A stretch of DNA of 64,000 bases from Crocinitomicaceae bacterium (GTDB lineage: Bacteria; Bacteroidota; Bacteroidia; Flavobacteriales_D; Crocinitomicaceae). The DNA lies in NCBI GenBank assembly GCA_028689775.1, contig JAQVCM010000015.1, positions 1 through 64,000 of the forward strand, in the 5' to 3' direction. Under the pieces are notes generated by a model. That model did no database searches. It had not been told where the DNA came from and saw only the letters and a list, made by a program, of their open reading frames with translations. Below, piece by piece: positions 10,660 to 14,780 of this stretch; within the stretch, counting starts at the first letter, position 1, and each line of letters opens with the position of its first letter. The position numbers and the translations under genes are program-made.

Positions 10660-10766
10660 GCTGTCAGATTTTAAATAATACTTAAATAGTATCAGCAAGT
10701 TATAAAGAAATCAGCTCTAAATAGAAAGGAGGCTGTTAAACTTTCTTAATCGAATTTTAGTTTGTT

Positions 10767-10792
10767 CCCCCCCGCAAGATCAAATTCTTGCG
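10767..10792 (+). other. C7 homopolymer followed by a 5'-leader hairpin
   Basis: Seven consecutive C residues (10767-10773) run into a perfect inverted repeat CGCAAGA-TCAAAT-TCTTGCG (10773-10792), 32 bases before the start of the T9SS cargo gene. A near-consensus -7 box (TTAGTTTG, 10757-10764) would place the transcript start within the C-run. Confidence 0.4.
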
Positions 10793-10824
10793 TATACCAA
10801 GATATAACCTTTAAAATATTATTT

Positions 10825-12546
10825 ATGAAAAATGTATTCTTATCGGCAGTGAGTATTTTAATAAGTCTCTCTGCTTTTTGTCAAGACATCGTTGTAGAAG
10901 TAATGAATTTTGATTCCCTCGGATGTCAAAAAATTCTGATCCTTCAAGTTATCAACAACAGTTCATCAACTGATTCTGGAACGCTATCCATCGATTGGGG
11001 AGATGGTTCTGCAATAGAACAACAGGTTTATTCGGTTACGCAAACTGGCACAAATAACTCGGTTCAATACATCAACAAAACACATTCCTATGCACTTGGT
11101 GGAAACTATACGATCGATGTACAAGCAGTGAGTAATTTTCCAAGTGTAACCATTAGTGTTCCTAATGGAAATCAAGTGATTTCGGCTTACGGTTCTAACT
11201 CGTGTGGCTACGCAAATTTTGGAGTTTTAATCAATGGTAGTAGTACTTGTTCTCCTAACATCTTTAATAATGTTCAATTAGATTTTACGGATAATGCAAA
11301 CAGTACGACAACCGTTTCTGGATTCTGGAGTACATTTAGTGGATTAAATCCCAACAATGCGCCTTATACAGTAAGTATTAATGATGCGTGGTTACTTGCA
11401 AATAATTTAACGCAAACTTCAGCTGACCTTGCAATTACAGGATTTTTACAAGATGGTCAAGCAATCACAAGTAGTCAGTTATTTACAGTTGCTTGGACTG
11501 CTGCGAATACCATTGCAGATCCATCTTTTAATTATGGTAGTGCTTGGAATTTTGTTGCGCCTTTACAAACGGGAACGCTTACCACCAGTTTCAATAATTT
11601 AACGTGTGTTCCAATGAACTCCAACTTGACGGTAACGATCACGATGCCAGCGCTTTTTATTCCGAATACGACAGGACTTCTGAATCCAACTGTATCTGGA
11701 AATGTATTAACTTTTGAAGTTCTTCCTTTTATTGGATACGACGGTGTAAGTATTCCCTTCACGTTTCCAGGCACATTAACCGCTGGAACAGGATTCTGCT
11801 TTGATGTTGAAATTGATTACACCGGAGATTTTAATATTTTAAATAATGAGGGTCAAATTTGCGGTGTCGTTCTCAACTCATACGATCCAAACATGAAGTC
11901 GGTGAATTTTGCGCAACGATTAGATCCTGATACAAAAGAGAAGTTGGTCTATAAAGTTCAATTTCAGAATGATGGAAATTATTCAGCAGTAAATGTAAAG
12001 ATTACAGATTTAATTGATGCGAATCTGAATTTGTCAACTTTACGTGTGTTGGAATCCTCACATCCACAAGCTACAAAAGTAAATACTACTTCTCGCCAAG
12101 TTGATTTCATGTTCAATAACGTGATGTTGGAATCGAGTGCTACTGATTTAGCCGGATCTCAAGGATATGTTGTTTATGAAATTGAAGAAAATACAAATCT
12201 AAGCGTTGGATCAACAATCGAAAATACGGCAAATATTTACTTCGATTTCAATCCTCCAATTACAACAAACACAACGTTGAACATCAACGAATATTTGTTG
12301 GGAATTGACGATTTAACTAAATCTACGCTTCAATTTTATCCAAATCCAGCGAAGGAAAACATTACGTTCAAAGGCGAAGTTGTCGAAGAAGTGAGCGTTT
12401 ATGATTTATCAGGTAAAATCGTTTTATCAGTTGATAATTTGGTAAACAATACGTTATCAGTTTCGAACCTAAACAATGGTTTTTACATGGTAATCGTAAA
12501 AACAATTACTGGAAATTCAACAGCTAAAATGAGTATCCAACATTAA
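10825..12546 (+). CDS. large secreted adhesin-like protein with T9SS type A sorting domain
   Basis: Signal peptide MKNVFLSAVSILISLSAFCQ, a PKD-like first region (SIDWGDGSAIEQQVYS), a Ser/Thr/Asn-rich middle, then a conserved module near residues 370-490 starting SYDPNMKSV and ending NIYFDFNPPITTNT, which recurs in Bacteroidota T9SS cargo (DUF7619-like). The last 75 residues are a type A C-terminal sorting domain: FYPNPAKENITF, VSVYDLSGKIV, LNNGFYMVIV. It should cross the outer membrane through the T9SS and be released or attached at the surface. ATG 10825 is preferred over the TTG at 10762 because it starts the signal peptide. Confidence 0.9.
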   Translation: MKNVFLSAVSILISLSAFCQDIVVEVMNFDSLGCQKILILQVINNSSSTDSGTLSIDWGDGSAIEQQVYSVTQTGTNNSVQYINKTHSYALGGNYTIDVQAVSNFPSVTISVPNGNQVISAYGSNSCGYANFGVLINGSSTCSPNIFNNVQLDFTDNANSTTTVSGFWSTFSGLNPNNAPYTVSINDAWLLANNLTQTSADLAITGFLQDGQAITSSQLFTVAWTAANTIADPSFNYGSAWNFVAPLQTGTLTTSFNNLTCVPMNSNLTVTITMPALFIPNTTGLLNPTVSGNVLTFEVLPFIGYDGVSIPFTFPGTLTAGTGFCFDVEIDYTGDFNILNNEGQICGVVLNSYDPNMKSVNFAQRLDPDTKEKLVYKVQFQNDGNYSAVNVKITDLIDANLNLSTLRVLESSHPQATKVNTTSRQVDFMFNNVMLESSATDLAGSQGYVVYEIEENTNLSVGSTIENTANIYFDFNPPITTNTTLNINEYLLGIDDLTKSTLQFYPNPAKENITFKGEVVEEVSVYDLSGKIVLSVDNLVNNTLSVSNLNNGFYMVIVKTITGNSTAKMSIQH

Positions 12547-12551
12547 AAAAT

Positions 12552-12586
12552 AAAAAGTAGCGGTGTACTGAACATCGCTACTTTTT
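12552..12586 (+). terminator. intrinsic terminator of the T9SS cargo gene
   Basis: AAAAAGTAGCGGTGT pairs with ACATCGCTACTTTTT across a 5-base loop, one G-U pair. It starts 6 bases after the TAA and the stem runs into T residues; being symmetrical it could also act in reverse. Confidence 0.85.
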
Positions 12587-12657
12587 GATTTTCAAATTTA
12601 AAAGGTTTATTTTTACGCCACCAAACAAACCTTGCACAAAGCAACTAATAGTCTACA

Positions 12658-13209
12658 TTGAAACTTACTAAAGAAATCATCAAAAAGATTAAGAAGAACG
12701 ATTACAAAACGATTACCGCTTTGTATAATGAGGCTTTTAGTGCGATGATAGCAATGGTTGTTCGGTATAAAAAAAATGAAGAAGATCAAATCACGATTAT
12801 CAATAACTCTTTTATGAAAGCGATTGAGAAAATAGAAAAATTTGATTTGAGTAAAGAATTTACACCTTGGATTTGTCAAATCACTAAAAATGAATTGATT
12901 GATTCGTATCGAAAAGAAAAAAACTACGACGTGTTTTTTGATTTTGAAGCCAAGGAAGACGGTCAAGAACTGGAAACAGAATCTCTCTACGATTTGGAAG
13001 TTGAACATGCCTATTTGAGGAACATATTACAAACATTGCCACCAGCCACCAACCTTGTTTTCAATTTATTTGCCATTGAAGGATATACATCGAAGGAAGT
13101 AGGCGAAGAATTAAACATCAGCTACGAAACTGTTAAATGGCACATTAAAGAAGCACGAAAACGCTTGAAATTAAAATTAATTGAGAATTCAACCACCTAT
13201 AAAGCGTGA
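12658..13209 (+). CDS. ECF-type RNA polymerase sigma factor
   Basis: 183 residues. Sigma2 region: EEDQITIINNSFMKAIEKI then LSKEFTPWICQITKNELIDSYRKEK (the FxxWLxxIxxNxxxDxxR pattern). Sigma4 region: LPPATNLVFNLFAIEGYTSKEVG and LNISYETVKWHIKEARKRL, a clear helix-turn-helix. The start is TTG at 12658: an in-frame TAG at 12649-12651 blocks extension and no ATG precedes the sigma2 region. It overlaps the next gene by 4 bases (GTGA), so sigma factor and its probable anti-sigma are translationally coupled. Confidence 0.9.
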   Translation: MKLTKEIIKKIKKNDYKTITALYNEAFSAMIAMVVRYKKNEEDQITIINNSFMKAIEKIEKFDLSKEFTPWICQITKNELIDSYRKEKNYDVFFDFEAKEDGQELETESLYDLEVEHAYLRNILQTLPPATNLVFNLFAIEGYTSKEVGEELNISYETVKWHIKEARKRLKLKLIENSTTYKA

Positions 13210-14780
13210 AAAAAGAAGACCAACATATCGACCATTTATTTCAAAAATTGAAAGGAGATTCTTTTGAGGTTCCTCCAGTATTCTTGGATGATTTGAAATT
13301 GCGATTGGATGCAAAGCAAGCACAACTTATTCGTCGTAAACGCTTGCTGTGGTTTATCATGTTGCTTTTAACGCTCTTGGGAATTGCCGCTATCTCTTAC
13401 ACCAATTCAAGAAAAGACAGCAATCATTCTAAAAGTGAACACATTGGTAAAAGTGCTGATTTTAAACAAAATGAATCAGAATTAGAACCTCAAAATCAAA
13501 CTGAAAATGTAGATCTTTTTTCAAAAAGTAGAAACAAAAATTCGACCGATTTAGAAAATGTAAATACGGAAATGAAACATGCTCTTTCTGAAAACTCAAA
13601 GGAGAAAAATTTAAACGTTTCTAATCAAAGAAATATAGCTTCTGTTTCTTCCCAGAAAAATGAGAGAGACTTGATTTTAGATAAAGAAACGAATTTAACA
13701 ACAACAAGAACAACAACAAATAAAAGAAGTAATTCTAAATCTCAGAAAGAATTTTCTTCAACCAATAAAGAGCACGCTCGTTTAAAATCAAAAGAGTTGA
13801 CACATGATAAAGATAAAAGTGAAACCACTTTAAAAAGCAAACAGCTTGTCTCCAAAAGGAATTCAAACAATGAAATAGGTAAAAACGCTTCTGATTTAGA
13901 AAATACAACGCAAATGAATAAATCAGAAAAATCAAATGAAACGCTGAAAGAACAAGCTGGTTTAACGAATTTAACGCTTCAAATGAAGTCGACACAAGCA
14001 CTTCCGAATCGGTATGACCGCTCACTTGCAGAGAGTAAGGAAATCGCATCGAACGAGGATGTTTCTGAAGATAAAGCGAATAAAAAACTTGATTTTGAGT
14101 TGCAAATATACAGTGGTGCTGGCTTGACTTCTTCTAAATTTGTTCCTTCAATTTCAGCGGATGAATTTCAATCTAATCCATTCATTTCTGCAAATTTTGG
14201 ATTGAAAACCAATTTACTTTGCCAAAACATCTATGGTTCTGCTGGAATTGAATTTTTTAAATCAGGTGATAAATTAAAATTTAACACCTTTGAATTTCAG
14301 CAAGTTGGTACAGATTCCTTGTTGACCAATATCATTTTTGATACGATTTGGATTGATTCCAACCAATTTGTACTGGACAGTATGTTTGTTTATGAAACTA
14401 CTCCAATTTTTGATAGCATCGCAAAAAGCAATACCAATAAAAATCAATATGCATGGATCTCAATTCCGATTTCGTTTGGATATCGTTTTCAATTCAATTC
14501 TTGGGATGTTATACCAAATGTGGGCGTCAATTTTAATTTTGGGATTGCGAAAAATTCTGGTGAATATCCGAATTCAGACAAGAAGTTTGTGAAATACGAT
14601 GCACTTAAATTCAACATGGATATCCGGGTGCAAACAGAAATAAGGAAGAATTTTGGAAATTTACACGTGTTTGTCAGTCCGTATTTTAAAAAGAATTTTA
14701 AGCCTATCATTTCAAATCCGAGCTTGCGCTTGACGCAAAAGAATTGGGGATTAAACGTGGGTGTTGGAATTAAATTTTAG
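13206..14780 (+). CDS. dual-membrane-spanning anti-sigma-like protein with C-terminal beta-barrel
   Basis: 524 residues in four parts. Residues 1-45 are a cytoplasmic segment of the size that binds ECF sigma factors; 46-64 form one inner-membrane helix (LLWFIMLLLTLLGIAAISY) after a basic RRKR; 66-293 are a low-complexity linker rich in N, S, K, E and T; 296-524 are amphipathic beta strands (ELQIYSGAGLTSSKF, ISIPISFGYRFQF, LNVGVGIKF) ending in Phe, the usual outer-membrane barrel signal. This matches the Dma anti-sigma type described in Bacteroides thetaiotaomicron, which joins both membranes. It starts GTG 13206, inside the sigma gene stop. It probably holds the sigma factor until the outer membrane is stressed; that is inference. 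Confidence 0.8.
   Translation: MKKEDQHIDHLFQKLKGDSFEVPPVFLDDLKLRLDAKQAQLIRRKRLLWFIMLLLTLLGIAAISYTNSRKDSNHSKSEHIGKSADFKQNESELEPQNQTENVDLFSKSRNKNSTDLENVNTEMKHALSENSKEKNLNVSNQRNIASVSSQKNERDLILDKETNLTTTRTTTNKRSNSKSQKEFSSTNKEHARLKSKELTHDKDKSETTLKSKQLVSKRNSNNEIGKNASDLENTTQMNKSEKSNETLKEQAGLTNLTLQMKSTQALPNRYDRSLAESKEIASNEDVSEDKANKKLDFELQIYSGAGLTSSKFVPSISADEFQSNPFISANFGLKTNLLCQNIYGSAGIEFFKSGDKLKFNTFEFQQVGTDSLLTNIIFDTIWIDSNQFVLDSMFVYETTPIFDSIAKSNTNKNQYAWISIPISFGYRFQFNSWDVIPNVGVNFNFGIAKNSGEYPNSDKKFVKYDALKFNMDIRVQTEIRKNFGNLHVFVSPYFKKNFKPIISNPSLRLTQKNWGLNVGVGIKF

Follow-up and report, generated by a model that had tools for sequence, protein, structure and literature searches.

An ECF sigma factor gene overlapped by a Dma-type anti-sigma factor gene in Crocinitomicaceae, and relatives carrying secretion-sorting domains

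A pair of overlapping genes was characterized in 64,000 nucleotides from a Crocinitomicaceae bacterium (contig JAQVCM010000015.1, positions 1 to 64,000, hereafter the window). The pair very likely consists of an ECF sigma factor and its cognate Dma-type anti-sigma factor, a single chain spanning both membranes through which a change at the outer membrane would free the sigma factor. The gene pair, the architecture of the anti-sigma protein, the fold of its C-terminal domain, its homology to Dma proteins and the inheritance of both genes together were obtained by computation. The design is already known from Bacteroides, and the pair adds a well-supported instance from a different branch of the phylum. 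Related anti-sigma factors ending in a T9SS sorting domain, found in the same genome, in nearly all of the family and in several other families, are more surprising and represent the stronger lead.

Results

The sigma factor gene (12658..13209, + strand) starts with TTG and encodes a Das-like protein of 183 aa, in which sigma70 region 2 and region 4 both scored above the Pfam cut-off. Its length and its TTG start are backed by alignment, 19 relatives starting at the same position. The anti-sigma gene (13206..14780, + strand; 524 aa) starts with GTG. The GTGA overlap given in the preliminary description was confirmed in the sequence: both ORFs are present and share four nucleotides (13206..13209, + strand), which hold the GTG start of the anti-sigma gene and the TGA stop of the sigma gene.

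According to Pfam, the pair is flanked by genes for a T9SS cargo protein and a TPR protein. The upstream gene (window 10762-12546) encodes a type-A T9SS cargo protein that contains a DUF7619 domain and is followed by a terminator-like hairpin (12551..12587, + strand), in which 16 pairs precede a U-run. Folding of 12540-12605 gave -21.1 kcal/mol (z -6.5), which was equalled in none of 200 shuffles. Since this strong hairpin separates the pair from the upstream gene, the pair is probably a transcription unit of its own. The sigma-70 and terminator scans gave results no better than those on shuffles. Regions upstream of the sigma genes were compared using a simple dyad search, which returned no convincing common promoter motif, the top word pair coming largely from one clade with similar upstream sequence. 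Self-regulation of the sigma factor is thus without sequence support here.

Residues 1-46 of the anti-sigma protein (13206..13343, + strand) form a cytoplasmic segment, presumed to be the sigma-binding domain. It contains the block IDxLFxxxLxxRSFDxPxxFLxDLxxRLD, the best conserved part outside the barrel among aligned relatives. An inner-membrane helix follows at residues 47-65 (13344..13400, + strand), with a Kyte-Doolittle value of 2.33 as a single peak (next best window 0.98). A hydrophobic helix is found at the same place in relatives, and the AlphaFold2 whole-chain model has a helix at residues 24-70. The N terminus was assigned to the cytoplasm because RRKR precedes the helix. Residues 66-295 (13401..14090, + strand) constitute a disordered tether of 230 residues, 79% of them polar or charged, with pLDDT <50 over residues 64-292. 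Among aligned relatives the sequence of the tether is not conserved, in contrast to the N-terminal block, the helix and the barrel. Its calculated reach is ~83 nm at 0.36 nm per residue, far above the width of the periplasm. The earlier proposal of a short cytoplasmic segment, one inner-membrane helix and a disordered linker of about 230 residues, long enough to cross the periplasm, was therefore borne out.

The length of the linker had also been put forward as a special feature, which did not hold: compared with the family, 230 residues are ordinary. Tethers measured 108-260 residues (median 202) in the Crocinitomicaceae set and 146-307 residues (median 198) in the wider set. The window tether does exceed those of the Bacteroides proteins measured (108-168 residues in the Bacteroides-type set, 108-134 in Dma2-like loci). 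These natural variants, from ~108 to 307 residues, can be used to ask whether length matters.

Alternatively, the chain could be cleaved in the periplasm on maturation, leaving no link at rest and making the barrel a co-produced outer-membrane protein. In some Flavobacteriia, a short anti-sigma gene with this type of N terminus is followed by a second gene, for an outer-membrane-like protein, so that the barrel and the anti-sigma part can exist apart. However, the fused form has been retained in most relatives across a large divergence, and tethers are never shorter than ~108 residues, as spanning would need. Cleavage is accordingly considered unlikely, and a continuous chain is the preferred reading.

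Residues 296-524 (14091..14777, + strand) were modelled as an eight-stranded outer-membrane barrel, the last residue of which is Phe. Eight long strands, the first starting at residue 295, were obtained in two AlphaFold2 models, of the domain alone and of the whole chain. Mean pLDDT was 76 for the domain alone; the alignments were shallow (8 and 7 sequences), and the barrel model rests on eight. Hydrophobic/polar alternation of the strands scored 38.2 versus 22.8 (sd 3.2) after shuffling, a value that none of 5000 shuffles reached. The preliminary description of a barrel ending in Phe is upheld by the eight-strand model, the fold matches given below and the terminal residue. The one PDB sequence match to the profile was weak, covered TM and linker positions 49-116 and was discarded as a chance match.

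A soluble periplasmic ligand-binding beta structure at this position would make the protein a conventional anti-sigma factor, crossing one membrane and carrying its sensor in the periplasm. The Pfam barrel match of the domain does fall below the cut-off, and soluble barrels are among the PDB fold matches, at Z 10-11 (VIA-align). They nevertheless rank below small membrane barrels (OprF, NspA, OmpA, OmpW, PagL and one designed barrel), whose Z values of 16-18 are the highest obtained. The alternation of the strands, the terminal Phe with its conserved terminal strand and the homology to the barrel of Dma1/Dma2-type proteins likewise speak against a soluble domain. Structure prediction thus returned a membrane barrel for the C-terminal region, and the soluble reading is judged improbable.

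In barrels of this type, an even number of strands leaves both ends on the periplasmic side. With eight strands, both ends of the predicted barrel would therefore be periplasmic, and the tether must enter there. The strand limits define a long hairpin between strands 3 and 4 (residues 367-401; 14304..14408, + strand) as a candidate sensing part. It is expected from the model to face the cell surface; model confidence is low in this hairpin. None of the eight closest relatives deviates at Asp370 or Asp384, within the hairpin, or at Asp403, where strand 4 begins.

Relatives of the 524-aa protein were found in 43 of 200 Crocinitomicaceae genomes, many of them full length, with named loci in Fluviicola, Brumimicrobium, Taishania and other Crocinitomicaceae; Dma-type loci also occur elsewhere across the class. 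A scan using the window protein as single sequence yielded no related loci, and no phage relative was found. In every readable relative locus the sigma gene precedes the anti-sigma gene, abutting or overlapping it. Sigma genes and genes for outer-membrane proteins are both common in Bacteroidota, which could bring an ECF sigma gene into overlap with an unrelated membrane protein gene by chance; this was rejected as extremely improbable on the conservation of the pair, the tight arrangement recurring in relatives across families and the window-type sigma profile scoring Dma-linked sigma factors at 99-282 bits versus 75 or less for other ECF factors.

The sigma factor tree and the barrel tree have most clades in common. 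One locus (L050:8121-10243) is discordant between the two trees, its sigma factor belonging to one subtype and its barrel to another, which suggests occasional exchange of barrel domains. The orthologue of the window protein is absent from four genomes of the same genus, all of which hold other Dma types. In three other genera the pair has TPR and nth genes nearby, which favours vertical descent with loss; loss in the sister genomes is more likely than a recent gain, and horizontal gain was disfavoured as the reason for the absence on the basis of these neighbours.

Several further arrangements were observed. A lipoprotein-like gene recurs beside sigma/Dma pairs, the window pair being without one: a large gene of this kind lies upstream of the sigma gene in six Crocinitomicaceae loci (L034, L035, L037, L038, L042 and L047), elsewhere in the class a small one lies after recA (L094, L097, L104, L107 and L111), and NigD lies beside the pair in Bacteroides-type genomes (L149, L150 and L152). 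Short forms of ~240-265 aa (L072, L073, L078, L085, L086, L087 and L089) consist of the N-terminal block, TM helix and linker, without the C-terminal domain. In most cases the next gene encodes a distinct exported protein of outer-membrane-like type, and the two genes together are a possible split version of Dma. In Fluviicola sp. MAG Ast373_bin2, a 248-aa ORF (L043/L060:5274-6020) fuses sigma residues 1-121 in frame to the barrel end. Lying near a contig end, it is probably a deletion or an assembly error, although a genuine sigma fusion is known in Dma3 of Bacteroides. A Fluviicola-like Dma locus (L059) was found in record CP034120.1, which is titled Glaciecola amylolytica THG-3.7, a gammaproteobacterium, and had been placed in the Crocinitomicaceae genome set; the organism name on this record looks wrong.

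The published definition of a Dma protein comprises an anti-sigma domain at the N terminus, a TM helix, a disordered tether and a barrel at the C terminus, with an ECF21 sigma gene next to its own gene (PMC13088901). The window pair shows N-terminal homology, a single TM helix, a long disordered tether, a barrel and an adjacent ECF sigma gene. A profile built from relatives of the window protein was searched against 60 genomes of one Bacteroides-type genus, chosen via a 16S primer site that we take to be specific to Bacteroides and its kin. Matches were obtained in 57 of the 60, often to both parts of one ORF, the N terminus (positions 1-138 or more) and the barrel. Of the loci fetched, five contain, in order, a nadC-like gene, the sigma gene, the anti-sigma gene, a lipoprotein gene, a hypothetical gene and an NMO-like gene; in L144, the one annotated with Pfam, DUF4943 was assigned to the lipoprotein and NMO to the final gene. 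This gene order is the same as that published for dma2, BT_1559 to BT_1555 (PMC13088901). Other matched loci adjoin a NigD gene, as is the case for dma1, to which nigD1 has been tied (PMC13088901).

Barrel profiles of the window family and of the Bacteroides-type proteins aligned at 98.2% and 99.6% probability. Das-type factors scored 99-112 bits with the window-type sigma profile, and by profile score the window sigma factor appears to group with them, apart from the other ECF factors of its genome. On the profile matches, the dma2-type gene order and NigD neighbours, and the barrel alignment, assignment of the window protein to the Dma family is supported. The Dma-type identity proposed earlier agrees with this homology to Dma1/Dma2-type proteins, with the full architecture, with the barrel fold and with the conserved linkage to a sigma gene.

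The window-type sigma profile retrieved five members from the genome at E 5e-40 or better (the next at 3e-20), all of which precede an anti-sigma gene of related plan. Two of the five pairs end in a barrel and one in a PorE/OmpA-like propeller; of the other two, one clearly carries a T9SS type-B sorting domain and the other matches it weakly. The barrel-ended proteins are that of the window and that at G000:C7:140621, whose barrel was assigned from a profile match over the full length, together with a Pfam match that falls short of the cut-off. The clear sorting domain (CHU_C) stands at the end of a 292-aa paralogue (L134:1900-2775, - strand; G000:C34:57399-58274) and scored above the Pfam and below the NCBIfam cut-off. 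The weak CHU_C match is in a 369-aa paralogue adjoining its sigma gene (L133:2398-3504; G000:C7:85400), of which a counterpart exists in a genus-mate (L141). The fifth protein, of 632 aa (L136:2107-4002; G000:C2:30106), has a related N terminus and, in its C-terminal part, PD40 propeller repeats; it is similar to PorE and to CHU_0125-type OmpA (peptidoglycan-linked) proteins, with scores far short of the cut-offs.

Of 200 family genomes, 197 matched the 292-aa type, more than a hundred of them over the greater part of its length. The remaining matches span the sorting domain only; five such ORFs were read out and share the plan. CHU_C was recognized in all 19 aligned members of the 292-aa group. 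A sigma gene lies directly upstream in 29 of 30 fetched T9SS-tailed loci (all where it was visible) and likewise in another twelve loci, of which six belong to other families of the class. The T9SS-tailed loci (L134, L157-L186, L187-L192 and L197-L202) combine an N-terminal block, a TM helix, a disordered linker and CHU_C. Their N-terminal blocks align with those of the window group in register but weakly (hhalign 44%, E 2e-4).

Discussion

The working model for the window pair is as follows. At rest, the N-terminal 46 residues would retain the sigma factor at the inner membrane, with one helix passing through that membrane, ~230 disordered residues crossing the periplasm and the barrel inserted in the outer membrane. 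The trigger at the outer membrane might be a ligand bound by the surface loops, a barrel that fails to assemble, or stress on this membrane. The signal would be relayed along the tether, probably by regulated proteolysis, releasing the sigma factor. The freed sigma factor could then transcribe its own operon and envelope genes, by analogy with Das1 and Das2 and what these do to vesicle formation. In B. thetaiotaomicron, the genetics of Dma1/Das1 and Dma2/Das2 support the view that the sigma factor is inhibited by Dma and that Das2 induces its own operon; loss of dma2 induces das2 and that operon, with hypervesiculation requiring das2 (PMC13088901). For the window pair, we infer that the sigma factor is bound and that the barrel is inserted in vivo; the release step, the regulon, the signal and an effect on vesicles belong to the same inference. 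The preliminary description held that the protein physically links the sigma factor and the outer membrane; the architecture it invoked stands, and from that architecture we infer the link itself.

Among the papers found, none dealt with Dma outside Bacteroides. The present analysis places the Dma design in Crocinitomicaceae and in other groups of the class, with tethers up to ~2x the Bacteroides length. A link from cytoplasm to outer membrane in one chain would then be a common route for surface sensing in Bacteroidota.

The T9SS-tailed anti-sigma factors are hypothesized, from their architecture, to be sensors of T9SS activity. In Flavobacterium psychrophilum, an ECF/anti-sigma pair has a promoter motif in common with porU and gldN (PMC9723704), and in Porphyromonas the cargo-domain protein PorA feeds SigP signalling (PMC7712824). 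The literature search found no paper describing an anti-sigma factor with a sorting domain. More speculatively, the cassette of N-terminal block, TM helix and linker shared by the five pairs of this genome could be a general leash whose far end is swapped for each machine, the T9SS tail reporting secretion load or block as mock cargo; this is offered as a tentative idea that may well prove wrong. If they work as the architecture suggests, these proteins would help explain how genes of the secretion machine are matched to load.

Comparison with known systems

The window pair is like FecI/FecR in that an ECF sigma factor would be controlled from the outer membrane via an inner-membrane anti-sigma protein. 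The Fec system relies on a TonB-dependent receptor as a protein of its own and on a FecR domain; for the latter, searches at E up to 1 gave no match in the window protein with either Pfam or NCBIfam. The Dma2/Das2 pair of B. thetaiotaomicron (BT_1558/BT_1559) has the same N-terminal anti-sigma part, TM helix, tether, barrel and adjoining ECF sigma gene. It differs in its shorter tether (108-134 residues compared with 230) and in its downstream DUF4943/DUF4858/NMO operon, which the window pair lacks. Similarly, the NigD1-linked Dma1/Das1 pair of the same species has the architecture of the window protein; the window pair is without a NigD-like lipoprotein neighbour and is flanked by T9SS cargo and TPR genes. 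Dma3 of B. thetaiotaomicron is a barrel-bearing anti-sigma protein of the same family with a sigma domain fused at its N terminus (PMC13088901), whereas in the window the sigma factor is encoded by a separate gene.
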